The notes beneath the pieces were generated by a model that saw nothing but the letters and a program-made list of their open reading frames with translations, was not told where the DNA came from and made no database searches. From a virus: a DNA stretch of 32,957 nucleotides. The stretch spans positions 1 through 32,957 of IMG/VR virus record IMGVR_UViG_3300027797_000079; one strand, written 5' to 3'. The stretch's first letter is position 1. Every line of letters begins with the position of its first letter. Positions 1 to 32,957 of the stretch are shown piece after piece. Made by a program: the position numbers and the translations under genes.

Positions 1-852
1 GAACTCAATACGTCTGCGTGCGATCTCAGCGTAGTCAGCATTGAGTTCTGCGCCGATGAAGTCACAACCGTGACGCATCGCCACGACTGCGACTGTGCCT
101 GACCCTGTGAACGGGTCTAGCACTAAGTCATTATGTTGACTAGATGCGATTACGCATGGCTCTACAAGTGCTTCGGGCATGACTGCGAAATGCGCACCTT
201 TGAACGGTTTCGTGTTGATAACCCAGACGCTGCGCTTGTTTCGTAGGCCGTCTTGCCTTGTCAGGTTGCTGGTAACGCCTTTGCCGTGAACAACCCTCTG
301 TGTGCCGTTTCGTGTCTCGTGGCCAACGATGACGTTACCTGCTGTTGCACCAGCAGCCTTGCGTTGCGCCCATGTTGCACCAGGTTCAGTTTTGACTGGC
401 TCAGCGATTGCTTTGTGGTTGAAGTAATAGCGTGCAGACTTTGACAACAAGAATACATATTCGTGCGATTTAGTGCACCTGTCGGTCACCGATTCAGGCA
501 TCGGATTCAGTTTCGCCCACACGATATCTTGACGCAACAGCCAACCATCTGCCTGCAACGCCAATGCAACTCGCCAGGGAATACCTGCCAGTTGCTTGCC
601 TGGCAAGTAAGTGTCGCCAAGGTTGAGCCACAGCGTACCGTCGTCTCGCAGCACACGCCTCACTTCAGCAAACACGCTAACCATCTCAGCGACATACGCA
701 TCTGGTGTCTGCTCTAGTCCAATCTGTTTGGTTTCACCATAGTCACGCAATCCCCAGTATGGTGGACTGGTGATACAGGTTTGAACACATTGATCGGGCA
801 ACTCTCGCAATCGCTGGCGCACATCGCCCAGCAAGATCGTCGCATTTGTCAT
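1..852 (-). CDS. DNA adenine-N6/cytosine-N4 methyltransferase, 5' part (split by window edge)
   Basis: Transfers methyl from S-adenosylmethionine to an exocyclic amino group of adenine or cytosine in DNA. Reading leftward from ATG at 852, the protein has the catalytic motif SPPY at residues 29-32 (context TSPPYWGLRDYG) and the cofactor motif DPFTGSGT at residues 246-253. Motif IV before motif I is the beta-class order. SPPY is compatible with either N4-C or N6-A specificity, so the target base is not decided. The start overlaps the resolvase-like gene's stop (ATGA, 852-849). The frame is open to base 1. Across the terminal repeat it continues at 32831 and stops at 32793, giving about 295 aa. 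No restriction enzyme gene is adjacent, so self-protection or epigenetic marking of phage DNA is more likely than a restriction system. Confidence 0.93.
   Translation of the reverse strand, partial: MTNATILLGDVRQRLRELPDQCVQTCITSPPYWGLRDYGETKQIGLEQTPDAYVAEMVSVFAEVRRVLRDDGTLWLNLGDTYLPGKQLAGIPWRVALALQADGWLLRQDIVWAKLNPMPESVTDRCTKSHEYVFLLSKSARYYFNHKAIAEPVKTEPGATWAQRKAAGATAGNVIVGHETRNGTQRVVHGKGVTSNLTRQDGLRNKRSVWVINTKPFKGAHFAVMPEALVEPCVIASSQHNDLVLDPFTGSGTVAVVAMRHGCDFIGAELNADYAEIARRRIEF
4..129. repeat. Terminal direct repeat, left copy
   Basis: These 126 bases recur exactly at 32832-32957, the end of the window. Bases 2 and 3 differ from the equivalent bases 32830-32831, which looks like a contig-edge artefact. 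The repeat lies inside a methyltransferase gene whose frame continues correctly through the joined copies. This supports a circular assembly or a terminally redundant genome. It does not by itself distinguish headful from cohesive-end packaging. Confidence 0.95.
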
Positions 853-1190
853 CGTTCTGTTTCTTTCAATAAGTCAACCCATACACGGCATGTGGTGAGT
901 GCGTACCACTGGTCAACATCTGTTGTACCTCGACGTTTGATGATCACCACACCTGTATCGGCTTTGCTGTTGGCCATTTCCACTTCTAATTCTGCAATGA
1001 ACTCGGCCAGTGTGTGCTTGCCGTGGTTTTTCACTTCAATGCACACACCAGGTACGCCATCAATATCGCCTACGTCGTCGTTCCTACCTGCACCATATGC
1101 ACGTTCTGCATGTATGTAGCCTTTAGTGCGTAGCCATTGCACTGTCTGTCGTTCGGCAGCGTCGCCTTTGCGTTTCTGCGGGTTCATCAT
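849..1190 (-). CDS. PD-(D/E)XK nuclease, Holliday-junction-resolvase-like
   Basis: A 113-aa protein resembling small archaeal Hjc-type resolvases and related phage PD-(D/E)XK nucleases. Such enzymes cut branched DNA made during replication and recombination and help resolve it before packaging. Visible active-site features are Glu13 in the first helix, GDID around Asp42, and the I-E-V-K core with Glu52 and Lys54. It overlaps the cytosine methyltransferase stop by 4 bp and is overlapped by the next methyltransferase start, so it is translationally coupled within the replication operon. Two adjacent ATGs (1190 and 1187) are possible starts. It could instead be a VRR-NUC-like nuclease. The fold call is firmer than the substrate. 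Confidence 0.75.
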   Translation of the reverse strand: MMNPQKRKGDAAERQTVQWLRTKGYIHAERAYGAGRNDDVGDIDGVPGVCIEVKNHGKHTLAEFIAELEVEMANSKADTGVVIIKRRGTTDVDQWYALTTCRVWVDLLKETER

Positions 1191-3189: not shown

Positions 3190-3591
3190 TCACCAGATGT
3201 CGTCTGCAGCGACTGCAGGTGCACCAGGCTCTAGTTTCGCCTTGTACAACTTCGGTGCATTGAATCCTTTTTGCTTGGGTTCACCGAGTGCAGTGTGCTT
3301 CACTGTGAGTTTGCAACCGAGCAGGCTGCTGATCTTCGCTGCGTTAGCAGCGTCACGGATTGCGGTCACCATCTGACCACGCACCCACAACGACTGCTGT
3401 GTGCCATCAACGTCGAGATCAAAAACCCACACGTGCTTCGGGTCGCCGTTAGACCAACGGCGAATCTCGCCATCCATCTCACGATCTTCAAGTTTGCGTG
3501 CATTGATGACCTTGCCTGTTACGGCATCGCCAACTGATGCGAGTTTCACCGCTGGAAGGCTACTGCCCTGTGCGAGGAAGTCGTCTGACAT
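3190..3591 (-). CDS. Probable single-stranded-DNA-binding protein
   Basis: A 133-aa protein with the look of a small OB-fold phage SSB: an N-terminal VGDAVTGKVI strand region, alternating beta-strand residues with conserved aromatics (HVWVFDLDVDG, LWVRGQM), and an acidic, tryptophan-ended tail (AADDIW). That tail recalls the DDDIPF-type tip that SSBs use to recruit partner enzymes. It would protect ssDNA during replication and recombination. It follows the RecB-like nuclease by 16 bp, a natural recombination pairing. AGGAG at 3599-3603 supports the ATG at 3591. The assignment rests on fold-like features and context, not on a full motif match. Confidence 0.6.
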   Translation of the reverse strand: MSDDFLAQGSSLPAVKLASVGDAVTGKVINARKLEDREMDGEIRRWSNGDPKHVWVFDLDVDGTQQSLWVRGQMVTAIRDAANAAKISSLLGCKLTVKHTALGEPKQKGFNAPKLYKAKLEPGAPAVAADDIW

Positions 3592-3607: not shown

Positions 3608-5002
3608 CTATTGGTTGAGTTGTTGATATAACTTGATTGCTTGATCTACAGTCAGCAGGCTGAGTGCCTCGCCGACTGTCGTCCCAGTGCCACCGTTAGA
3701 GATGACTACAGCGAGCGGATTCGGTTGATCTGCCAGCAGTATCATCGCACGTGCGATCTCAAAACGTCGTACGCTCGGTGTGGCAGTGAGCGAGACAGAT
3801 TGGCCTGATTCGCTTGCCTCTTTAGCCCACGCCTCTAAGATCTTACGTTTGGCGGTTGGTAACGCTTTTATTGTACTACGCAGCGCATCAATGTCTGTAT
3901 TATCCATCAGATGCCCTTCGTCTAGTTTCTTCTTGGTACTCCGCTTGCCTTCCTTTGGCTTCTGCTGCACTGGTTGCGGTTCAGGTAGGAACGGCATGCT
4001 GTGCAACGCTTCAGCGGATTCTACGATCTTGGTGATCTTGTCAAGTTCTGCACTGGTCTGATCGTTAGACTGCTTGAACGTTGGCACTTCGTCAGGCCAA
4101 AAAGCAACCAGCGTGTTCATGTGGCCTGCTTCAACGAGTGCACCGACACGTGACTTCAATAGTGCTCGTCGCTCGACGATTGGCTCTGCAGCAGGCGACA
4201 CTGAAACAGGCGCTAATGGCACGAGTTTAGCGACCTTTGGTGTAGATTTCTCAGCGACACGGATAGCCTGCGACAGATCAGCGAGTTTAAGAGCCTCACG
4301 CAGATCAATCTCGTAGAGAGTGCACGTGTCTGACTGTGCAGGCAAGTGTGCGATGTATGCCACATCTAGATCTACGTTCGGCAGTGCTTTGCGTTCACCA
4401 GTAGCGACATCGTACTCAACTGCTGTAGCATACAAGGCCAACTGCACCATGTAGGCGAGCGGCTTGGGTGAGATGGACTTGCCTGTCTTCTTATCCACGG
4501 CGATCAGTTTGCCATCGCTGGTGCGCATGAGGAAGTTGTCACCTGAACCTGCTGCCTCGTAATGATCGTTGACCAGTCGCAGTTCTACCATCTCAGGTAG
4601 GACTTCTAGCCCGAACTGGTCGAGCGTGTCGTACCACGCTTGCATATACGGCAAGAAGTTGCTAGGTACGGCATCTCTACCAAGCATACCTTGGTCTACT
4701 TGTGCGAGCACTTCATGTATCGCAGTGCCTGTGTTCGCTGCACGACTCGCACCACCTGCGTCTAACATCTGCTGTGCGAGATCGTCGAGTTTGCGATCAT
4801 CTGCTTTGTGTGCAGAGGCGAGTTGCATCAGGTCAGGGCGTGCCACTGCACCTGCGACCATCGTGCGCAGTTTCCACTTGGTGAGACCTGTTTGGTTCTC
4901 CAGGTTTTGCCCGTAACTGCTGATACGTGTGTATGGTTTGAGTGAACCGTCTGCTTGTATGATCGTGGGTCTGCCCCAGCGATCTCTGTTGAAGTCTGAC
5001 AT
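3608..5002 (-). CDS. RecB-like PD-(D/E)XK exonuclease
   Basis: A 464-aa nuclease of the RecB/Cas4-like superfamily, likely making or trimming ssDNA ends for recombination-coupled replication. Signature elements are GTAIHE (His96), GSGD (Asp155), IAVDKKTGK (Asp170, Lys172) and the QxxxY helix QLALY (Gln187, Tyr191). Only one cysteine occurs in the catalytic region, so it lacks the four-Cys iron-sulfur clamp of true Cas4. The C-terminal 200 residues form a low-similarity region with a Lys/Pro-rich linker and a helical end. GGGAG six nt before ATG 5002 fixes the start; the longer open frame to 5221 would overlap the muramidase-like gene. The SSB-like gene follows directly. Confidence 0.8.
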   Translation of the reverse strand: MSDFNRDRWGRPTIIQADGSLKPYTRISSYGQNLENQTGLTKWKLRTMVAGAVARPDLMQLASAHKADDRKLDDLAQQMLDAGGASRAANTGTAIHEVLAQVDQGMLGRDAVPSNFLPYMQAWYDTLDQFGLEVLPEMVELRLVNDHYEAAGSGDNFLMRTSDGKLIAVDKKTGKSISPKPLAYMVQLALYATAVEYDVATGERKALPNVDLDVAYIAHLPAQSDTCTLYEIDLREALKLADLSQAIRVAEKSTPKVAKLVPLAPVSVSPAAEPIVERRALLKSRVGALVEAGHMNTLVAFWPDEVPTFKQSNDQTSAELDKITKIVESAEALHSMPFLPEPQPVQQKPKEGKRSTKKKLDEGHLMDNTDIDALRSTIKALPTAKRKILEAWAKEASESGQSVSLTATPSVRRFEIARAMILLADQPNPLAVVISNGGTGTTVGEALSLLTVDQAIKLYQQLNQ

Positions 5003-5024
5003 TGATATCTCCCTTGTTAGTTGT

Positions 5025-5612
5025 TTAGTTGCACTTGATAGACCACGGTGTCCAACCGCATTGACCGTTCTGCTCTCTTGCACTCCACAATCGGTATGCA
5101 AACAGCAGGTTGTTGTATGGGCTGAACATATCGTCAGGGTGACTGAATCCCATCTCTGCCAGCCAGTCAGTGTGTATCTGATTGATCTGTGTGAGGCCTG
5201 CATCGTGTCCATTCCAGGCATCTGTAGTGCAGCGTGATTCTTTCCACATCACACGGCTCAATGTCGGCCATTGTTCTTCACTCCAACCTGCTTGTATCGC
5301 CATGTCGTGGTACTCACCACACTGGCCGTAAATGGCTGGGTCTAATGGTGCAACAGTTGTGCTGGTCGACGTTGTTGATGATGCGCTGAGTTCAGCGGCA
5401 CGATCTGCTTGCTGTTGCGGTGTCAATTCACCAAGTGTGATCGTTGACGGTGTGACTATCGTGGTGGTTGTCGCACTTGGTTGATCTGTGATGAGTTCAA
5501 CGGTGATGACACCGTAGAGTGTCGCTGCGATACCGAGCGGTAGTGCTATTTTCCTGTAGAGCCGAAACCTGATGTGCCTCGTTCGCTGTCGTTGAGTTCT
5601 GCTTGTATCCAT
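5025..5612 (-). CDS. Membrane-anchored lytic-transglycosylase/lysozyme-like protein
   Basis: A 195-aa protein: a strongly basic N-terminus (residues 1-21), one membrane segment (about 21-38), a Ser/Thr/Pro-rich linker (45-90), then an SLT/lysozyme-like domain. Glu125 in the KES motif is the expected catalytic acid, followed by GLTQIN (139-144) and NNLLFAYRLW, typical of transglycosylase SLT domains. The layout predicts a muralytic domain held outside the membrane. GAAAGG before ATG 5612 supports that start even though it overlaps the dUTPase end by 67 bp. It lies in the nucleotide/replication operon, far from the M15 endolysin, so an early wall-remodelling or accessory lysis role is possible. 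Confidence 0.8.
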   Translation of the reverse strand: MDTSRTQRQRTRHIRFRLYRKIALPLGIAATLYGVITVELITDQPSATTTTIVTPSTITLGELTPQQQADRAAELSASSTTSTSTTVAPLDPAIYGQCGEYHDMAIQAGWSEEQWPTLSRVMWKESRCTTDAWNGHDAGLTQINQIHTDWLAEMGFSHPDDMFSPYNNLLFAYRLWSAREQNGQCGWTPWSIKCN

Positions 5613-6394
5613 GTTAGGCCTTTCGTAGTTAGGTTGAATGGGACTATTTGAGCGATACGGTCATTAGGTTCTATAATCTGTGGTTCGTTGCTGATGTTCC
5701 AGCAACATGCGTACAGTTCGCCACGATAGCCAGCGTCAATGACCGACGGTGCGACGAAAAGTTTACGTGAGAACGAACTGCTTCTGCCGAGAATCATGAA
5801 CCACATGTCGTCAGGCAGTTGCACTGCGATCTTAGAGCGCACGTTGGCGAAAGCACCTGCAGGTATGATCAGTGACTTGTCATCACTGTAGTACAGGTCA
5901 AAACCTGCGTCGCCGTCTTTGCCTGGTTTTGGTGCTCTGCCTTCGCCTGACCACTTTGCAACTTGCGATGGTCGACGTGTCAGTGGCATGCCGATGTTGA
6001 GAGCACGCACCACTGCACGCACATCATTGACAACTGCAACTCTGTCTAACGATTCTAGGTGTGACAGCATCGCTGACGTGCGCACCTCAATATCAGTGAC
6101 AACAACAACGATCTTGCCCAGGTCTACTGCTGCCTGCATCTCCATCGGCACACCGATGGTTTTGGTGTCTTTCGGCAGGATTGCGACCACTGCATCACAT
6201 TGTGTCAGTGCGTATTGGTTCACTGCTTGTATCGTTGGGCCGTCAATGCGGTTGGTACTCCACGCTCGTTGTGGTTCGTAGGTCGTATGGCCTGCGCTGA
6301 CTAGCCCAGATTTGATGTACTCGGCTCGTTCATTGAGTGTGCTGCGTGCTGGTTGATCTGTGTGGTCAATAGGTCGTGCGATGTAGATGTGCAT
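5546..6394 (-). CDS. Nucleoside 2-deoxyribosyltransferase-like / dUTPase fusion
   Basis: A 282-aa two-domain enzyme. Residues 1-130 resemble the nucleoside 2'-deoxyribosyltransferase/Rcl group: IYIARPID at the N-terminus, CDAVVAILP (66-74) and a GVPMEMQ segment (81-87) where the family's catalytic Glu sits. Residues 155-282 are a trimeric dUTPase with all five motifs: DAGFDLYYS (162-170), GRSSSF (203-208), the VIDAGYRGEL region (218-227), RIAQIVPF (246-253) and RGTSGFGSTG (272-281). The dUTPase hydrolyses dUTP to dUMP, preventing uracil in DNA. The first domain would cleave or exchange bases on deoxyribonucleosides or their monophosphates. AGAGG 5 nt before ATG 6394 and the stop of the preceding gene 1 nt away set the start. 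Confidence 0.85.
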   Translation of the reverse strand: MHIYIARPIDHTDQPARSTLNERAEYIKSGLVSAGHTTYEPQRAWSTNRIDGPTIQAVNQYALTQCDAVVAILPKDTKTIGVPMEMQAAVDLGKIVVVVTDIEVRTSAMLSHLESLDRVAVVNDVRAVVRALNIGMPLTRRPSQVAKWSGEGRAPKPGKDGDAGFDLYYSDDKSLIIPAGAFANVRSKIAVQLPDDMWFMILGRSSSFSRKLFVAPSVIDAGYRGELYACCWNISNEPQIIEPNDRIAQIVPFNLTTKGLTWIQAELNDSERGTSGFGSTGK

Positions 6395-6395
6395 G

Positions 6396-6569
6396 TCAGC
6401 CTCTGTAGATTCGTACTTTGGTTGGGTTCGGTTTGACGACGACTGTCTTGCCTGGTTGCTCGACGTGTTGCTCAATGTCACTGGTGTCGGCTGCCTGTTG
6501 TGCCAAGTTCAGCGTTGTCGCCAGTGGGAACTTGGGCTGGTAGTGCCAGGTTGATCGTTGTGTGTTCAT
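6396..6569 (-). CDS. Small hypothetical protein, 57 aa
   Basis: A 57-aa protein between the MazZ-like and dUTPase genes. It overlaps the upstream stop by 4 bp (ATGA at 6569) and ends 1 nt before the dUTPase start. GGAG lies 10 nt upstream of this ATG; the alternative ATG at 6578 is only 1 nt from it, too close. Composition is polar with a basic, proline-containing end (VKPNPTKVRIYRG). No domain recognised. Coupling to both neighbours suggests it is truly translated. Confidence 0.6.
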   Translation of the reverse strand: MNTQRSTWHYQPKFPLATTLNLAQQAADTSDIEQHVEQPGKTVVVKPNPTKVRIYRG

Positions 6570-6958
6570 GTTGTCCATACTCCTGCTCTTTTTGCTAAAA
6601 CCATCTTGGCGTAGACTGCGATATCAAACCAGGTGTCGTCTGATGGCAGGTCTCCACGTTTGTGTGCACTGATTGCACGTTCCATCTTGCCGATGAGGTA
6701 GAACAGGCAGCCGAGTTCCATGGCATCTGCGTCTACTATCGGATTGCGGTTAGCCAGTTGGCGCACCTGCTGGCCGACTGCCACCAGGTCGCCACTGCCG
6801 TATTCGCACATCTTGGCGATGGTGGCACTGGCTTCAGTCCTGGCGTGATCTAGCCACCACTGCTCTAGCAGGGCGATATCTCCGTTGGCCACGACAGGTA
6901 TCTCGGTGGCTCTCCGTTGGTCTTTGTCCCCTGCGCTGGTATTTCGGTGGGGTTTCAT
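6566..6958 (-). CDS. mazZ: MazG-like nucleotide pyrophosphohydrolase, MazZ candidate
   Basis: A 130-aa all-helical protein. The block DAMELGCLFYLIGK ... PSDDTWFDIAVYAKM has the E...ExxD-like helix pair of the MazG/MazZ superfamily, which hydrolyses (d)NTPs to NMP and pyrophosphate. It starts at ATG 6958 inside the PurZ stop (ATGA), so the two are coupled. In 2-aminoadenine phages MazZ turns dGTP into dGMP, the substrate of PurZ, and that pairing is what suggests the name. The first ~20 residues are encoded by a copy of a dispersed genomic repeat (6898-6926), so the ancestral protein may have begun near VANGDIALLEQWW. The MazG fold is likely; dGTP specificity is inferred from context. Confidence 0.6.
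   Translation of the reverse strand: MKPHRNTSAGDKDQRRATEIPVVANGDIALLEQWWLDHARTEASATIAKMCEYGSGDLVAVGQQVRQLANRNPIVDADAMELGCLFYLIGKMERAISAHKRGDLPSDDTWFDIAVYAKMVLAKRAGVWTT
6898..6926 (-). repeat. Dispersed ACGGAGA-iteron repeat, copy 1 (inside coding sequence)
   Basis: On the minus strand this is a GACCAACGGAGAGCC core followed 10 bp later by ACCGAGATACC, matching copies at 9333, 26427 and 29776 apart from one change in the second unit. Upstream homology includes a CACCGAAATACC stretch (6931-6952) also present in copy 2. It is translated as the N-terminus of the MazZ-like protein. A shortened derivative, missing one 10-bp unit, lies next to it at 6875-6890 (GGCCAACGGAGATATC). Confidence 0.8.
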
Positions 6959-8013
6959 TGGTTCGCCCAAACGACGGTACGATCTGAAGTACCGAACACC
7001 TTGAACTTGATGCCCAAGTCCTGCTCTTGGCGACTGATCCATTTGAACGCTGGCGAGTGGCGCAGTGTGGCGTAGTCGGTGCATCCAGCAAGCGATGGGT
7101 CAAGGTAGTCGACGAACATGAGGCTGCTGTGCAGGTTGTCGTAGGCGGCAGTGCCGTTGGCATGAATTGCCTGCTGTGCGAGGCTGAAGTCCCAACTGGC
7201 GACACGCCTGATCTTTTTGGTCACCGTGGTACGTTCAGCCTGGATATAGCCACCACTGATCTCGTTTAGTTCTTCCCAATTGGTCTCGTTGTGCATATCG
7301 CCACTGTTGCCAGCCACACGAATAGGGTAAGTGCGGAACACTAACCAGATGTCAGGTTGCTGCAGTGGGGTGATGCCTGCCTGGGCGATGCAGTCAATGG
7401 CTCGACAGTCGCCTGATGTGCAGTGTGGGTAGAACCCTGCGTGCAAGCCGAGGCCATAGCCCTGCGTGCCTTCAATGAGTGTGTGCTGTCCACGTAAGTG
7501 CTGATCTTGCAGAAACCAGGCGGTGTCTTCGCACTCGTACAGTTCGTCTGCGATGCGTGCGGTTCGCATGATGCGGTCTGCTCTCGCTGCACCGATGCCT
7601 TTGCCTGTACTGCCGATGTTGGCGTGCATGTTGCGTGCGGTCTCGGTCTCAATATGGCAAGGGTCTAAGATCGTCGCTGTGTAGTCAATGAGCAGACGGT
7701 CACGCACTGAGAAACCTGCTTCTTCAAGCATGGTGATCTCGTGCTCTAACACGATAGGGTCGATCTCGCTGCCAGCGCCGATGATCAGTCTGCATTCAGC
7801 GTCGACCACTGCAGCAACTGGGATTGTGCGCAATGCCCATACTCTGCCAGTTGCATCAACTGCTGAATGTCCAGCGTTCGGCCCACCAATGCGCACTGCA
7901 TTGTGTACCTTCCTGGTCTGATGAATCTGTGCAGCGACGTGTCCCTTGGCTTCACTGCCGAATTGACCGCCGACGACGACATGAATGTCGCCTAGAGCGC
8001 TGATGGTTGACAT
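6955..8013 (-). CDS. purZ: PurZ-like adenylosuccinate synthetase homologue (2-aminoadenine pathway)
   Basis: A 352-aa member of the adenylosuccinate synthetase family. PurA enzymes carry W-G-D-E-G-K-G in the nucleotide loop with a catalytic Asp; here the loop reads GGQFGSEAKG with Ser20 in that place. Asp-to-Ser replacement at this position is a known hallmark of phage PurZ, which joins dGMP and aspartate to form N6-succino-2-amino-dAMP on the way to dZTP. The catalytic-His segment (GGPNAGHS) and a long GTQGYGLGLHAG segment are retained. About 350 aa is the short, viral length; bacterial PurA is about 430. AGGAG 8 nt before ATG 8013 fixes the start. The MazZ candidate follows with a 4-bp overlap. 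A divergent PurA with another substrate is possible but less likely. Confidence 0.88.
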   Translation of the reverse strand: MSTISALGDIHVVVGGQFGSEAKGHVAAQIHQTRKVHNAVRIGGPNAGHSAVDATGRVWALRTIPVAAVVDAECRLIIGAGSEIDPIVLEHEITMLEEAGFSVRDRLLIDYTATILDPCHIETETARNMHANIGSTGKGIGAARADRIMRTARIADELYECEDTAWFLQDQHLRGQHTLIEGTQGYGLGLHAGFYPHCTSGDCRAIDCIAQAGITPLQQPDIWLVFRTYPIRVAGNSGDMHNETNWEELNEISGGYIQAERTTVTKKIRRVASWDFSLAQQAIHANGTAAYDNLHSSLMFVDYLDPSLAGCTDYATLRHSPAFKWISRQEQDLGIKFKVFGTSDRTVVWANQ

Positions 8014-8190: not shown

Positions 8191-8198
8191 TATCATAT
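8191..8198 (-). promoter_or_regulatory. Possible -10 box (ATATGATA) ahead of the small zinc-finger gene
   Basis: The octamer ATATGATA on the minus strand matches the boxes at 9203-9210, 26397-26404 and 29659-29666. No convincing -35 is seen. It falls at the end of the upstream coding frame, so it may be chance. Confidence 0.3.
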
Positions 8199-8546
8199 GG
8201 CCTTCATCGGTGTTGGCTGTCCTGCGTGCTTGATGCACCACGCACCTGAGATCGGTATGTGGGTGGTGATCTTGCTGTCGCATTTGGTGCATCGCCAGTG
8301 CGAACTGGTCGACGTTGCGATATCGCCTGGTTGCACATCTTCAAGGGTGAGCCGTTTGGCGATTGCACGCAGGCTGAAGATCGTACTGGCTTTGGTACTG
8401 CCACTGAGTATCGTGTCGTTGCGTGTCTGCTCAATCCAACTGTCGACCAGGTTGATGAGTTGTGCCTCTTCAATGAGTTCGGGCTTGTCTATACCGAATG
8501 CCAACATTGTCTTGATGTTGGCTGGGGTGAATCGTGTGATGTCCAT
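8193..8546 (-). CDS. Hypothetical protein with C-terminal Cys/His site, 117 aa
   Basis: The N-terminal two-thirds are helical and charged (MDITRFTPANIKTML..., RAIAKRLTLEDVQ). The end carries CTKC (about 86-89) and CIKH (about 104-107), a plausible zinc site. AAAGG 8 nt before ATG 8546 supports the start, and it lies 1 nt after the previous gene's stop. There is no HD motif, so it is not the missing DatZ dATPase. Function not recognised. Confidence 0.65.
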   Translation of the reverse strand: MDITRFTPANIKTMLAFGIDKPELIEEAQLINLVDSWIEQTRNDTILSGSTKASTIFSLRAIAKRLTLEDVQPGDIATSTSSHWRCTKCDSKITTHIPISGAWCIKHAGQPTPMKAI

Positions 8547-8547
8547 T

Positions 8548-8895
8548 TCAGTTGCCTTTCGTTGTTGGTCTGCCGAATCGCATTTCATTCAGATAGGTGC
8601 GATGTGCGCTGCTCAGATGTGCATTTGTTGCGAATCCGCCTGGCACGTCTCGGCAGATCGCATTGTAAGTGGCACGTGCACTGCTGACGAGCCACTGCAT
8701 GCCGAACTCAAAAGACTCGCCGCCATCCATATGCGAGTCTGCATCTGATTCAAGATCAAGGTATGCAGACTCAGTGAGTTCTATCACGTAGTGTTTCTTC
8801 AACACCTTGATGATCGTGCCTTCTTCGCAGCCACGCTCAATATGATCTTCATAGAACCTCTTTGGAATCTTGACGGTGACGACTAACTCGCTCAT
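8548..8895 (-). CDS. Hypothetical protein, 115 aa
   Basis: Begins MSELVVTVKIPKRFYEDHIERG and contains an acidic middle (DLESDADSHMDGGESFEF) followed by a helix with SARATYNAICRD. No known domain is visible. Its ATG lies 1 nt past the preceding stop (TGAGATG), so translation is probably coupled. Its position two genes into the purZ operon suggests early expression. Confidence 0.6.
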   Translation of the reverse strand: MSELVVTVKIPKRFYEDHIERGCEEGTIIKVLKKHYVIELTESAYLDLESDADSHMDGGESFEFGMQWLVSSARATYNAICRDVPGGFATNAHLSSAHRTYLNEMRFGRPTTKGN

Positions 8896-8896
8896 C

Positions 8897-9157
8897 TCAT
8901 TCACCAACCTGATTGTTGATGGCGTTGAACACTCCAGCGTTGGTCGCAATCAGTCGTTGCAGTTCCATCACTTGAACCATCATGTTGTTCGCTTGATGCG
9001 TCAATGTTTTTTCAGGTGCGCCATGCAACGATTCCATTGCAGGGTTGTGGAATCGACTGCGCAAATTTTCGATTGCACATTCAAGGTCCAGCAATTGGTT
9101 GTCAATCGCTAGGCGATTCTTGGTGATCGTGTTCTGATTCTTCTCTGAGATGTTCAT
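8897..9157 (-). CDS. Small helical hypothetical protein, first gene of the purZ/replication operon
   Basis: An 86-aa, Asn/Gln-rich, leucine-containing helical protein with possible coiled-coil character (LLDLECAIENLRSRF, MMVQVMELQRLIATN). GGGAG lies 6 nt before ATG 9157, in the same leader (CCAACAAGGGAG) that precedes the gene at 29611. It is the first gene behind the promoter cassette at 9161-9220. No function recognised. Confidence 0.65.
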   Translation of the reverse strand: MNISEKNQNTITKNRLAIDNQLLDLECAIENLRSRFHNPAMESLHGAPEKTLTHQANNMMVQVMELQRLIATNAGVFNAINNQVGE

Positions 9158-9160
9158 TTC

Positions 9161-9220
9161 GGTCTCCCTTGTTGGTGTCGGCTCTTGCCTACCTAAATAG
9201 TTTATCATATCGGATTATAC
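9161..9220 (-). promoter_or_regulatory. Promoter/leader cassette A, driving the purZ-replication operon
   Basis: Reads leftward. 35 bases at 9184-9218 are identical to 29640-29674, and 18 bases of leader with the ribosome-binding site (9161-9178) equal 29615-29632. The shared block holds a -10-like TATGAT (9204-9209); a TATAAT (9214-9219) is unique to this copy. No canonical TTGACA is apparent, which fits activator dependence or a non-standard sigma factor. Confidence 0.65.
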
Positions 9221-9479: not shown

Positions 9480-9743
9480 CTATCGCTTACGGCCACCAAC
9501 CTGCACCATGTCACCGACAGCCAGCATCTGCACAGACTTCACCATCTTGATAGGTATGTGCAGCACCGCATCAACATGATCGCACTGCGTACTGGACTGA
9601 CTGATCGTCACATGTCCACGTTTCATGCCTTCCATCAACCAACCGACAGACTGCACTACATAAGCACCATCATCGTCGAGATCATCAACATGCACCCAGT
9701 TCTCACTGCCTGCATGTGCATCATGCCACGTCACCAGCACCAT
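9480..9743 (-). CDS. Hypothetical protein, 87 aa, last late gene
   Basis: The protein reads MVLVTWHDAHAGSENWV then DDDGAYVVQSVGW and GHVTISQS, and ends VLHIPIKMVKSVQML. This pattern matches a small conserved phage/prophage protein type of unknown role that often follows lysis or structural genes. The ATG at 9743 overlaps the phosphoesterase stop by one base (TGATG), so it is coupled. The longer frame to 9770 is disfavoured because it overlaps that gene further. Confidence 0.65.
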   Translation of the reverse strand: MVLVTWHDAHAGSENWVHVDDLDDDGAYVVQSVGWLMEGMKRGHVTISQSSTQCDHVDAVLHIPIKMVKSVQMLAVGDMVQVGGRKR

Positions 9744-10705
9744 CAACACGAGAACTCCTGACCTCGCCACATCGCCCAGCCGTCATCAATCGCCACCTGC
9801 TCATACACGAACCTACCAGTGGCCTCATCATATGGAATCACTGCAAGCCCTTGCTGCCAGTCCTCGTACCGCACCACTGGTCGACCATCAAGATCAATAC
9901 CGCCTCTAGTGCTAGGCACTGCGCCATCAATACGAGCCAGGCATCCAGGTGTCGCAGCCATCACAGTATGCGCACCGTTGTGCGCCTCACGAGTTCGCAC
10001 TGCATACTCACGCCGATGAATGTGACCGTAGATCACACTAGATCGTTCAGTCGCTAGATATTTATGTGCTGTACTTCCACCGCTAGCAACCTTATCGCCA
10101 TGAATGACACGCAGATGCTCGGTAATCCACACACACGCTGCTGGGTAGCCAGCCAGGTACTCGACGTTGTGATCATCTAAACGGCACAGAAACGGCACAC
10201 TCATCACTGGCCATGAATCAGGTGCATCGCCACGTCTGATACCGAATGCAACTGACGCATTGTCGAGCAAGTAGTTAGGTAGCCGTTCTTCGTGATTACC
10301 AGCGAGCCATACGATACGAGCGTTAGGTGCAGCAGATCTCACTTGTGCTGCCATCAGTGCAGCACGATCTATCGTCGCCTGCGTGGTCTGTGCGTACGCT
10401 GGACTCAGCCTGTACTTACCAAGTTCAGGCAGATCAAGGTTATCGCCCACTAGCACGACCAGGTGAGGGTTCGCACGTTTGACGATACGCAACGCTACAG
10501 CGATAGCACGTTCGTCATGTGTCGGCTCTAAGCCGTATTCACCTCGGTAGTAGCCGATCTGCATATCAGGCAAGATAACTGCGCATGGCCATCCTTCTTT
10601 GTTCCTGCCTCGTTTCAGTGGCGGTATCTGTACAGGTGGCGACTGCTGAACTAACGGCCACGCTGGTGCGCTAGTTCGGCGTTTGGTGGTCTCTGATGTG
10701 GTCAT
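9743..10705 (-). CDS. Calcineurin-like metallophosphoesterase
   Basis: A 320-aa member of the binuclear metallophosphoesterase superfamily. Metal-binding motifs in order are PDMQ (46-49), GDNLD (87-91), GNHEE (136-140), HGDK (202-205) and YGHIHR (226-231). PDMQ replaces the usual D-x-H, as in some phage members. Likely substrates are phosphodiesters such as cyclic nucleotides or nucleic-acid ends; I cannot choose. It begins within the small coiled-coil membrane protein gene (35-bp overlap) with GAGG 5 nt before ATG 10705. Placement after lysis genes is common in actinophages. Confidence 0.88.
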   Translation of the reverse strand: MTTSETTKRRTSAPAWPLVQQSPPVQIPPLKRGRNKEGWPCAVILPDMQIGYYRGEYGLEPTHDERAIAVALRIVKRANPHLVVLVGDNLDLPELGKYRLSPAYAQTTQATIDRAALMAAQVRSAAPNARIVWLAGNHEERLPNYLLDNASVAFGIRRGDAPDSWPVMSVPFLCRLDDHNVEYLAGYPAACVWITEHLRVIHGDKVASGGSTAHKYLATERSSVIYGHIHRREYAVRTREAHNGAHTVMAATPGCLARIDGAVPSTRGGIDLDGRPVVRYEDWQQGLAVIPYDEATGRFVYEQVAIDDGWAMWRGQEFSC

Positions 10706-29816: not shown

Positions 29817-31715
29817 CTAGAGCAGGTACGACTCTATATCATTGTCAGCCTCAGCAGCATCAGCACGCCTGGCTCGGTGGCGCATCGCTGCACGCAGGGT
29901 CGCATTGCTCGCCGTGTAACCGTTCTCAGTCAAAAGCGCTCTCACTTTGCGGCCACTCATGCGTGCATCAATGTTCATATTGTCGAGCGTAGTGACTAGT
30001 TGATCAGTGCCATCAGGTGTCGGTGGCTCGTGTGCGATGTGGAACGTGAACGGGTCATCAGTTATGCGCAGATCTATCTTCTCAGGTATCCAACTCATTC
30101 GTGCCTTGCGTGTCTTCATCTGATATTGGCCTTTGCCTGACTTGCTGAGTTGCCAGACGATATCAACGTCGTCGTTCTTAGCACTGCTACCACGTTGTCC
30201 TTTTTCAACATCTTTGCCTGCATGGTCTATGCGTAAGAACGCTCGGCCTGCCTTCTTCAAGTGGATGCCTGTGTTGCGGTAGAACGCACGCACCGTATCG
30301 GCTTCGTTCTCATCACCTGACACTGCACGCCCGAATGTATCAATGACAACCAGATCTGCAGATACGAGTTCTGCAAGCCTAGCGACCTGCTTGCCACCAG
30401 CCACACTGTCAAGGCTATCTAAGTCAGGCAGCAGTGCGTATTGCAGGTTGCTCAGGTTGTATTCGGGGCCGTAGCCCATAGACTCTAATCGTTCAGCCAG
30501 GTCATCTGGTGTCATTTCATAGTCTAAGTACAGCACACGTCGAGGTTTCTGTGGGTGACCGAATATTGGTGTCCCTGTGGCGATCGCTGCAGATAGGAAT
30601 AGCGACAGCATTGATTTGCCTGTGCCACCAGGTGCGAATATCGCATGTGCACGTGCCTCAGCGATTATCGGCTCTGCCAACCATTCTGCAACTGTGTGAT
30701 CCTGTTCCCAAAAGACAGGCCAATCAATAAGCAATTTGAGCAAGTTGGCATCAGTATCGTCGATCTGACCAGTTGCTGTCACTGCCACTGTTGGCATGAG
30801 TTCATCTATCGTGGGGTGGTCAAATTGGCGCTCGTCTCGCAGTAGTGCACGTGCTGCCTCACTGCGATCGCCACCGTGGTTGCGACATGCGTAGTAGCCG
30901 AACTTGCTGTATGCACCTGCAGGCAACCAGTCAATACTGGAAGTAAACACCACGAGCACATCTTGGTTGCGATAGCCAGTGGTGGCAGATGTGCCTTCTC
31001 TAGGGTTTTTACCTGGTCGAGTCCAGTGGGTCTCACCAGTGGGGTCTGTAGCGCCTTCAGTCCAACCGTCACGCATTAGCAGTTCGTGCCAGGTGGTGCG
31101 ATTGTTGAATCTTGATGCTGGGCCGTCGCCATCATTGCTCAGCGGTGTGGTTGGTTGTTGCGCTGCTGGGTTCTGTATGAGTTCTAACATCCATGCTGGC
31201 ATCGGTGCTGGCTCTACATCTGCAGGCGACATGCCTGGTTGCCACTGGTACAGGTTGCCGTTCGGGTGTATGGTTGGTGGTGCGAGCACTTGGCCACCAT
31301 CGCCTCTGATGTCTATCCCTGCACCGAGTCGTGAACCTGCGTCGTTTCTGATCTCTACGCTTGGCGGTGCGAGCAGGTAGATATGCTGGCCATTGCTGCC
31401 AGTTGTCGCTCGCACTGTCAATGGCAGTGCACCATATCGTTTTTCTAGGTCTCGCAACGTCGACGTGCCTGATTTCGCAGGGTCGTGTTCATCAATATCA
31501 ACAACGATCAAGTTCTGGCCGTTCGGCTGTGGCCCAGTGGCGATACCGATACCGTGGTCGTTGTACAGTCCGTTGTACCAGTTGTGGATTGTGCGTGTGT
31601 TGTTTGTCGCTGCGTGTTGCCACGATGCCATCGGTGGTCGTTTCTGCCCTGGTTTGATTGGCAGTATCCGCCAACCGAGTGCAGCGAGTTCTAGTGCTTG
31701 TTCTTCAGTGTTCAC
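29817..31715 (-). CDS. Bifunctional primase-polymerase / RepA-DnaB-like helicase
   Basis: 632 aa replication protein. The N-terminal prim-pol domain (1-175) has DID (73-75), the GQH of motif II (109-111) and IDIRGDGG (134-141), the catalytic acidic and histidine residues of archaeo-eukaryotic primases. The C-terminal RecA-type ATPase has Walker A GGTGKS (363-368), YLDYE (396-400) and Walker B LVVIDT (455-460), as in RepA/DnaB-like helicases. A winged-helix-like tail closes the protein. It uses a GTG start overlapping the methyltransferase stop (GTGA). It is the only polymerase-type gene visible, so the phage may prime or copy with it and borrow the host replicase. Confidence 0.9.
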   Translation of the reverse strand: MNTEEQALELAALGWRILPIKPGQKRPPMASWQHAATNNTRTIHNWYNGLYNDHGIGIATGPQPNGQNLIVVDIDEHDPAKSGTSTLRDLEKRYGALPLTVRATTGSNGQHIYLLAPPSVEIRNDAGSRLGAGIDIRGDGGQVLAPPTIHPNGNLYQWQPGMSPADVEPAPMPAWMLELIQNPAAQQPTTPLSNDGDGPASRFNNRTTWHELLMRDGWTEGATDPTGETHWTRPGKNPREGTSATTGYRNQDVLVVFTSSIDWLPAGAYSKFGYYACRNHGGDRSEAARALLRDERQFDHPTIDELMPTVAVTATGQIDDTDANLLKLLIDWPVFWEQDHTVAEWLAEPIIAEARAHAIFAPGGTGKSMLSLFLSAAIATGTPIFGHPQKPRRVLYLDYEMTPDDLAERLESMGYGPEYNLSNLQYALLPDLDSLDSVAGGKQVARLAELVSADLVVIDTFGRAVSGDENEADTVRAFYRNTGIHLKKAGRAFLRIDHAGKDVEKGQRGSSAKNDDVDIVWQLSKSGKGQYQMKTRKARMSWIPEKIDLRITDDPFTFHIAHEPPTPDGTDQLVTTLDNMNIDARMSGRKVRALLTENGYTASNATLRAAMRHRARRADAAEADNDIESYLL

Positions 31716-32551
31716 TCGTGCCGCCTGTTGTGCGCTTCTATGATCATACGACCAACATACTCAGCGACTTGAGGCACTACTGCGTTACCTAAGCCTCTAA
31801 GTCTGTCCACCCGATGGGGAATCCCATCAGCCACTCTACCCACATCGGGTTCAGTCGCCCAGCAATCGTGGAGTGATCTAACTGCGCTATCCTGTCTTGC
31901 AAACTCTGCTGTTCGTCCGTAGATCTCAAACTCATCACGCAGTCCTGGATTTCTGTCATTGACGTGTGAGTCGTTGGGAACATCATCACTTTCTGCTCTA
32001 GTTTCCCTTTGTAGCCTTTTTTCTTGATGTTGGCTATGATCGACTTCGCAGTTCCTGTCATGGATGCTGATGCTCTTGGGGTAGGCCACGCAGAGAATCC
32101 GCTCACGTTGATGAGCGGCACCAACGCTGGCCGCTGATATAATCTGCCATTCTGCATCATACCCGATTTCGGTAAGGTCGCCAAGGACTCGGTCGAATCC
32201 CAAAGAGAGATGACCGCGGACATTCTCCAGGATTGCGTATTTTGGTCGTACTGCGCTAATGGCATCTCTAAATGCTGGCCACAAATGTCGTTCATCATTT
32301 TCTCCTTGTCGTTTCCCGAATGCACTGAATGGCTGGCAGGGATACCCTCCAGCGATAACATCTACATACGGCGCTGTTTCCCAGTCAATATTCCGTATAT
32401 CACCAAGGTTGGTAACGTCTGGCCAGTGTTTTTTCAGTACCTGGCATGCGAATGGGTCAATCTCTGAGTGCCATTTGACAGCCATGCCAGCACGCTCAAG
32501 CCCTAGATCAATGCCACCGATGCCACTGAAAAGGCTACCTACTGTCAGCAT
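31712..32551 (-). CDS. DNA cytosine-5 methyltransferase (second copy)
   Basis: 279 aa. Motif I LFSGIGGIDLG (7-17), motif IV GGYPCQPFS with catalytic Cys72, motif VI ENV (109-111), motif VIII HQRERI (147-152), and a short target-recognition region before the C-terminal RLRGLGNAVVPQVAEYVG. AGGGGAAC before ATG 32551 supports this start over ATG 32575. It differs strongly from the first copy, so the two probably methylate different sequences. It overlaps the 81-aa gene upstream by 17 bp and the PrimPol gene by 4 bp. Its +1 frame is open for 168 codons (separate entry). Confidence 0.95.
   Translation of the reverse strand: MLTVGSLFSGIGGIDLGLERAGMAVKWHSEIDPFACQVLKKHWPDVTNLGDIRNIDWETAPYVDVIAGGYPCQPFSAFGKRQGENDERHLWPAFRDAISAVRPKYAILENVRGHLSLGFDRVLGDLTEIGYDAEWQIISAASVGAAHQRERILCVAYPKSISIHDRNCEVDHSQHQEKRLQRETRAESDDVPNDSHVNDRNPGLRDEFEIYGRTAEFARQDSAVRSLHDCWATEPDVGRVADGIPHRVDRLRGLGNAVVPQVAEYVGRMIIEAHNRRHE
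31789..32295 (-). CDS. Candidate overprinted gene inside the second C5 methyltransferase (+1 frame)
   Basis: 168 aa wholly inside the methyltransferase gene, covering its residues about 86-254. AAGGAG (32302-32307) lies 6 nt before ATG 32295. The product looks like a real protein: LAQYDQNTQSWRMS, SLATLPKSGMMQNGRLYQ, WPTPRASAS, and the end LNPMWVEWLMGFPIGWTDLE. From memory, separate phage proteins with this exact landmark order (SW-x-MS, LP-x-SGM, WPTP-x-AS, LNP-x-[FW]VEWLMGFP-x-GWT) are common near Dcm genes. Either this is a true overlapping gene or databases are full of conserved shadow frames. Function unknown. Confidence 0.55.
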   Translation of the reverse strand: MNDICGQHLEMPLAQYDQNTQSWRMSAVISLWDSTESLATLPKSGMMQNGRLYQRPALVPLINVSGFSAWPTPRASASMTGTAKSIIANIKKKGYKGKLEQKVMMFPTTHTSMTEIQDCVMSLRSTDEQQSLQDRIAQLDHSTIAGRLNPMWVEWLMGFPIGWTDLEA

Positions 32552-32780
32552 TGTTTGTTCCCCTATTTTGAGCACGATACGTTGACGGTGCGTGATTAGA
32601 TTCTACCTCATCAGCATGCTCGCTATCATTGTACAGTCTGATCATGTGCAGGCAGATGTCGGGTTCTTCCATCTCAACCAGTTCAGAATCTGATAGTGGC
32701 ATGCCGTCGTGTGTATAGCACACTGGTGGTCCGCACCAACGGTTGCTCATGCCGATCTCTAGCCATTCATTGAAGTTCAT
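32535..32780 (-). CDS. Small conserved-type hypothetical protein, 81 aa
   Basis: MNFNEWLEIGMSNRWCGPPV, then CYTHDGMPLSDSE and an acidic stretch EEPDICLHMIRLY. Small phage proteins with a WCGPxVCYTHDG motif are widespread in actinophages and unassigned. AAGGGG lies 5 nt before ATG 32780 (ATG 32783 is closer to it). It is located between the amino-methyltransferase and the second C5 methyltransferase. Confidence 0.7.
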   Translation of the reverse strand: MNFNEWLEIGMSNRWCGPPVCYTHDGMPLSDSELVEMEEPDICLHMIRLYNDSEHADEVESNHAPSTYRAQNRGTNNADSR

Positions 32781-32792
32781 CATTTCCCCTTG

Positions 32793-32957
32793 TTATTTGA
32801 TTGTTACTGTGTTGAGTATCGGCTGGTCGTGCTCAATACGTCTGCGTGCGATCTCAGCGTAGTCAGCATTGAGTTCTGCGCCGATGAAGTCACAACCGTG
32901 ACGCATCGCCACGACTGCGACTGTGCCTGACCCTGTGAACGGGTCTAGCACTAAGTC
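32793..32957 (-). CDS. Amino-methyltransferase, 3' part (joins the gene at window start)
   Basis: Carries the DPFTGSGT motif and the C-terminal helix again within the terminal repeat, then 12 residues (HDQPILNTVTIK) and TAA at 32795-32793. Joined to the frame ending at base 4, it completes a 295-aa protein. Its stop lies just before the ribosome-binding site of the 81-aa gene. Confidence 0.9.
   Translation of the reverse strand, partial: DLVLDPFTGSGTVAVVAMRHGCDFIGAELNADYAEIARRRIEHDQPILNTVTIK
32832..32957. repeat. Terminal direct repeat, right copy
   Basis: Identical to bases 4-129. See the left copy for meaning. Confidence 0.95.

Follow-up and report, generated by a model that had tools for sequence, protein, structure and literature searches.

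A complete PurZ0-lineage phage genome with a DmtZ-DutZ fusion, a conserved purZ partner and a PrimPol-helicase as its sole polymerase-type gene

The window analysed here, the full 32,957-base record of an uncultured phage (IMGVR_UViG_3300027797_000079), is a PurZ0 and DmtZ-DutZ phage genome that combines the polymerase strategy of cyanophage S-2L with an undescribed, tightly linked gene beside purZ. We think it likely that this complete phage of the PurZ0 lineage makes 2-aminoadenine (Z) DNA by controlling its nucleotide pool and not by means of a Z-selective polymerase. An earlier note on this DNA had proposed a 2-aminoadenine phage equipped with PurZ and a PrimPol and without an HD-type DatZ or DpoZ, and the gene content supports that proposal at the level of sequence. 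In the mechanism that we suggest, the DutZ domain would convert dGTP to dGMP and dATP to dAMP, and the DmtZ domain would take dAMP to adenine or move the sugar-phosphate onto a free Z base. PurZ would convert dGMP to dSMP, aided by a partner protein that is always made with it and that would most likely act as a MazG-type (d)NTP pyrophosphohydrolase, and host enzymes would complete dZTP. With dATP depleted, a polymerase blind to A versus Z (the phage PrimPol, or a host replicase primed by the PrimPol) would copy the genome with Z. The activity of the partner, the copying polymerase and the presence of Z in virion DNA enter this scheme as predictions.

PurZ and the DmtZ-DutZ fusion in a complete genome

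The two ends of the record carry a 126-bp repeat (left copy, bases 4-129; right copy, 32832-32957) with 100% identity between the copies, and a methyltransferase gene that runs from 852 down to 1 crosses the junction and continues from 32957 to 32793. The repeat and the junction-spanning gene together indicate that the genome is complete, so that gene absences from it are meaningful. Bases 1-3 lie outside the otherwise perfect repeat and are probably an assembly error at the end. The junction gene is one of three for DNA methyltransferases (1-852 with 32793-32957; 1187-2860; 31712-32575), two of which are of the C5-cytosine type (PF00145) and one of the N6/N4 type with an SPPY motif, which suggests N4-cytosine as its predicted product. 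There is no clear adenine methylase among them, a pattern that would fit DNA devoid of adenine. A WhiB gene and the closest cultured relatives of the PurZ point to an actinobacterial host.

We assign the product of 6955-8013 (minus strand) to the Ser-type adenylosuccinate synthetases of the phage PurZ0 lineage, with a predicted conversion of dGMP and Asp to dSMP that is carried over from assayed relatives. It matches Adenylsucc_synt in Pfam (E = 1.7e-40) and PHROG 1211, '2-aminooxy adenylosuccinate synthetase' (E = 7e-78), and, as the earlier note had recognised, Ser20 replaces the catalytic Asp of PurA in the motif GGQFGSEAKG; this Ser is invariant in ten aligned phage PurZ proteins. The best match among solved structures is 7VF6, the PurZ0 of Gordonia phage Archimedes (E = 2e-70), those to the PurZ of phiVC8 (2e-32) and of S-2L (1e-17) being far weaker. 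Placement in a PurA/PurZ phylogeny, which the same note had proposed as a check, puts the protein among phage PurZ0: in a quick tree of 91 rows it falls in a 45-row phage clade (SH-aLRT 99) that includes PurZ0 proteins from Wayne, Ghobes, Galactica, Theresita and Olihed, while the PurZ of phiVC8, S-2L and DMU1 lie outside this clade, as do the Ser-type PurZ-like proteins encoded on bacterial chromosomes. Its closest cultured relatives, at ~39-47% identity, belong to Arthrobacter, Streptomyces, Gordonia and Microbacterium phages.

The search for a dATP-removing enzyme led to a different answer from that of the earlier note, which had supposed that dATP is excluded by a host enzyme or by an unrecognised phage gene, such as those for the small proteins at 8193-9157, or that its exclusion is incomplete. 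Its observation that there is no HD-type DatZ held, since the YfbR-like profile (PF12917) had no match in the window genome and 18 relatives while the positive control worked; the suggested substitutes are not supported, as a DmtZ-DutZ is encoded at 5546-6394. The ORF 5546-6481 (minus strand) joins an N-terminal nucleoside-deoxyribosyltransferase-like (NDT) domain to a dUTPase in both Pfam and PHROG. The gene itself probably spans 5546-6394, because its relatives begin at an ATG matching 6394 and residues 1-26 of the AF2 model of the ORF are of low confidence. Its homology to the enzyme assayed from Wayne identifies it as a DmtZ-DutZ fusion, with the DmtZ domain at ~6032-6394 and the DutZ domain at ~5546-5941.

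Both enzymes have been characterised in the fused form of Arthrobacter phage Wayne and the split form of Gordonia phage Ghobes (PMC12884076): DutZ converts dATP to dAMP and dGTP to dGMP, and DmtZ converts dAMP to adenine or moves deoxyribose phosphate onto free Z. The same study reports dutZ in 98 of 98 PurZ0 genomes surveyed (PMC12884076; 2026). The six DmtZ residues examined (Y6, D12, P57, N77, G99 and E103, in Ghobes numbering) are all conserved, without variation, in the window protein and those of its relatives. Since dUTPases filled the list of a VIA search with the whole fusion model (Z up to 18.9), the DmtZ part was examined by a domain profile, which matched NDT, MilB and DNPH1 structures. 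The DutZ domain and 36 other Z-phage dUTPases (37 rows) form one clade (99/91) against an outgroup of 21 canonical phage and bacterial dUTPases, and this clade includes the assayed Ghobes and Wayne enzymes. Homology to those enzymes allows dATP removal and dGMP supply to be assigned to the fusion as predicted functions. We note that Wayne DutZ still prefers dUTP, and that the fusion could act mainly as a dUTPase.

The small upstream proteins were rejected as dATPases because they are poorly conserved in relatives: no homologue of the proteins at 8548-8949 and 8897-9208 was detected in the related contigs used for comparison, and only the C-terminal part of 8193-8588 is kept, at 33-34% identity, in three of them. 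A calcineurin-like metallophosphoesterase (phrog_20266) lies at 9743-10705 in the tail/lysis region; it was rejected as a substitute for DatZ, having no homologue in related PurZ contigs. Between the partner gene and dmtZ-dutZ there is a 60-aa ORF (6396-6578, minus strand) with weak similarity, 24-27%, to ORFs in the same place in two relatives (G001 and G003).

Ser-type PurZ-like genes also occur in many bacterial genomes (L127-L167; for example L127:7950-11852 and L129:9980-12712), with a dCTP-deaminase-like (DCD) gene adjoining in ~21 loci and a deoxynucleoside kinase or an RNase_H_2/AAA protein alongside in some; a defence-system library gave weak matches only to these loci. In a contig of a Candidatus Nitrosotalea MAG (L159:4253-11026), a DUF6378 protein and an ORF of MazG-like appearance, the latter without a Pfam match in the frame scanned, are encoded within ~4-7 kb upstream of a PurZ-like gene; this is perhaps an archaeal virus or a Z-DNA locus.

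Polymerase genes of the window and its relatives

As the earlier note had seen, the only visible polymerase is a PrimPol-helicase (29817-31715, minus strand), in which Pfam finds an AEP Prim-Pol domain (PF09250, E = 2e-40) and AAA_25 (E = 1e-27), and in which all three AEP motifs (DID..H..D) are intact. Its reported lack of DpoZ was confirmed: the family-A polymerase profile (PF00476), for which the positive control worked, had no match in the complete window genome, and no other polymerase emerged when the predicted genes were scanned with Pfam. Without DpoZ, Z specificity must come from the nucleotide pool, and without a Z-selective polymerase the replacement of A may be partial.

This arrangement is shared by a group of environmental relatives. 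Five related PurZ contigs (G001, G002, G003, G004 and G006) likewise combine a PrimPol with a dUTPase and lack PolA, and among 41 further PurZ0 contigs of at least 10 kb, many of them fragments, PolA is present in 15 and missing in 26, with PF09250 in 34. Four PolA-less records, the window and three others (G001, G032 and G050), have end repeats and are complete. In a careful PurZ tree, the 11-row clade of the window (100/97) consists of ten PolA-less members and one short fragment that was not scored; the polymerase state changes a minimum of about six times on this tree, and at least two of these changes are forced by well-supported branches. PurZ0 phages without DpoZ thus form a supported clade of environmental phages. 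The existence of complete PurZ0 genomes without DpoZ matters because the published PurZ0 set came with a matching DpoZ-1, and A-to-Z replacement in that lineage was thereby tied to a selective polymerase (PMC12884076). In PurZ0 phages, DutZ and DmtZ may play the part that DatZ and MazZ have in S-2L.

Which polymerase would copy the genome is a finer question. The chance that the host replicative polymerase does so, with the PrimPol-helicase merely priming and unwinding, falls only a little short of even, and this variant shares the same pool control. Phages of around 33 kb with a single primase-helicase typically depend on the host replicase, and the window genome has this size and make-up. 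PolA-bearing (that is, DpoZ-bearing) PurZ0 phages also carry AEP primase-polymerase proteins, so that the window PrimPol may only prime. Moreover, E. coli given only the Z-cluster genes of S-2L incorporates Z into its DNA with its own polymerases (PMC8342488). Copying by the phage enzyme, on the other hand, is consistent with the intact AEP motifs of the window protein and with S-2L, whose PrimPol is a working polymerase and has been proposed as the sole replicase of that phage (PMC8065100). As the S-2L PrimPol does not discriminate between A and Z (PMC8065100) and the Z-cluster suffices in E. coli, pool control fits the PrimPol and the host replicase alike.

Two further kinds of genome were seen among the contigs compared. 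Three PurZ0 contigs of 32-81 kb (G019, G044 and G045; loci L054, L105 and L106) yielded neither a family-A polymerase nor PF09250. A complete 32-kb relative with a 123-bp end repeat (G007; loci L036 and L037, on the contig of L009) shares with the window a C5 methylase, capsid genes and, of the PrimPol protein, the helicase half; it has no purZ, dUTPase or Prim-Pol domain and is a non-Z sister.

The conserved gene downstream of purZ

Directly after purZ lies a gene (6566-6958, minus strand) for a protein of 130 aa from an unannotated family, a candidate MazG-type (d)NTP pyrophosphohydrolase. The earlier note had taken it for a coupled MazG-like gene and labelled it a MazZ candidate. The coupling stands, as the ATG of the partner ORF overlaps the purZ stop; the MazG-like assignment found no match in Pfam, PHROG or the DUF550 and DUF5664 profiles, and the MazZ label is not upheld, there being no sequence match to MazZ-1/DUF550 or to DUF5664. 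In the window genome and 18 relatives, the DUF550 (PF04447) and DUF5664 (PF18909) profiles matched nothing, whereas their respective controls, S-2L and Wayne, were positive. Alignments of the partner compared by hhalign with Wayne DUF5664, S-2L MazZ and one DUF6378 protein, a single sequence in each case and hence a comparison of low power, likewise gave no match, and membership in any of the three was rejected by profile on that basis. The partner has no sequence match in the PDB, and the best Foldseek PDB match of its model has E = 3.7.

The association of this gene with purZ is nevertheless close to universal. Relatives of the partner were found in 31 of 50,697 phage records (Microbacterium 18, Gordonia 6, Streptomyces 5, Micrococcus 1 and Curtobacterium 1), and the counts for Microbacterium, Gordonia and Streptomyces equal the PurZ match counts of the same genera. 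In the cultured phages examined the partner is the gene after purZ, except in Wayne, where a DUF5664 gene occupies its place. Many loci are near-duplicates, so the locus counts are not independent, but of the 81 loci that PurZ retrieved, 80 have the partner directly downstream (the contig of the exception ends 52 bases after purZ), and purZ lies directly upstream in 68 of 71 and 59 of 62 loci found by two partner alignments. Partner loci without an adjoining purZ are at contig or locus edges, bar one contig (L219/L316) in which purZ is on the other strand within ~2.3 kb. A gene that is near-universal beside purZ and unannotated could be a missing part for building Z-DNA in laboratory bacteria.

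What the protein does is suggested by its residues and its model. An alignment of 45 sequences keeps E52, E81, D108, D112, K49, K91 and R94, a set that would suit a metal-dependent pyrophosphohydrolase, and the AF2 model is helical and confident (pLDDT 88). In a viral library, Foldseek pairs the model with nucleotide-modification-associated, DUF1599 and DUF6378 domains at probabilities of 0.82-0.99 but E values of 0.07-1.1, and VIA returns the MazG-related 2yxh (Z 5.5) and HisE 1yvw (Z 5.3), tied with unrelated helical rows. Together with the assayed DUF5664 hydrolase that sits in the same place in Wayne, these weak fold matches make the partner plausibly a MazG-type (d)NTP pyrophosphohydrolase by function, although it lies outside the MazZ-1/DUF550 and DUF5664 profiles. 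Less probably, at something under one chance in three, it is a subunit or scaffold of PurZ that, for example, channels dGMP or regulates the synthetase and hydrolyses no nucleotide; the near one-to-one linkage, the translational overlap and the lack of an enzyme family match would all agree with such a role, and an extra hydrolase is not strictly required if DutZ already yields dGMP. The conserved residues, the viral-library pairing and the Wayne replacement speak against it, and we continue to favour the pyrophosphohydrolase.

Comparison with known Z-DNA systems

The genome is closest in layout to Wayne and Ghobes, with which it shares a PurZ0-type PurZ, dmtZ and dutZ genes close to it (joined in one gene in Wayne) and the gene order purZ, small gene, dutZ; no DatZ is reported for their PurZ0 lineage (PMC12884076), and the window likewise has none. 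It differs from both in having no family-A polymerase, which in those phages lies near purZ, and from Wayne in having the partner in place of DUF5664; the PurZ proteins of Wayne and Ghobes are only 41-44% identical to that of the window. S-2L (PMC8065100, PMC8342488), by contrast, resembles the window in its replication genes, with a PrimPol as sole polymerase-type gene, no DpoZ, and a PD-(D/E)XK nuclease and a small nuclease in the replication module, but it has DatZ, MazZ and a PurZ-group synthetase where the window has DmtZ-DutZ and a PurZ0-type synthetase. The MazZ-1/DUF550 and DUF5664 pyrophosphohydrolases are like the partner in their place beside purZ and in a plausible dGMP-supply role, and unlike it in sequence and profile.

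That PurZ is a leftover or serves pool manipulation only, with virion DNA of ordinary adenine or a mixture, is improbable: the lack of a Z-selective polymerase and of DatZ would allow it, and Z in the window phage and in other PolA-less PurZ0 phages is a prediction from gene content, but PurZ, the partner and DmtZ-DutZ stay together across strongly diverged genomes with their catalytic residues intact, which is not expected of a relic. Returning to Z-DNA made by pool control, we regard as evenly balanced the wider proposition that PurZ0 Z-phages other than those of Arthrobacter depend on a new Z-pathway protein encoded after PurZ, and that a large environmental branch replicates Z-DNA without a Z-selective polymerase by way of DmtZ-DutZ and that protein. 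A literature search of partial coverage returned no paper on the partner family, or on PurZ0 phages that have a PrimPol only, beyond those cited here.

The remaining genes of the module are shared with relatives. The PD-(D/E)XK exonuclease-like protein is encoded at 3608-5005 (minus strand; the ORF extends to 5221 and relatives begin near 5005), with a PDDEXK_1 match at E = 5.5e-4, under the Pfam cut-off, and 30-55% identity in relatives. Next to it, at 3190-3591 (minus strand), is a conserved replication-module protein without a Pfam match and with 60-67% identity in relatives, and the small nuclease-like protein at 849-1190 (minus strand), which has weak nuclease matches only, adjoins the PrimPol gene in relatives. 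The adenylosuccinate lyase (PurB) step is normally supplied by the host; we also note that one PurZ0 phage, Streptomyces phage Galactica, carries a PurB-like adenylosuccinate lyase of its own, gp75 (L041:12335-13720).
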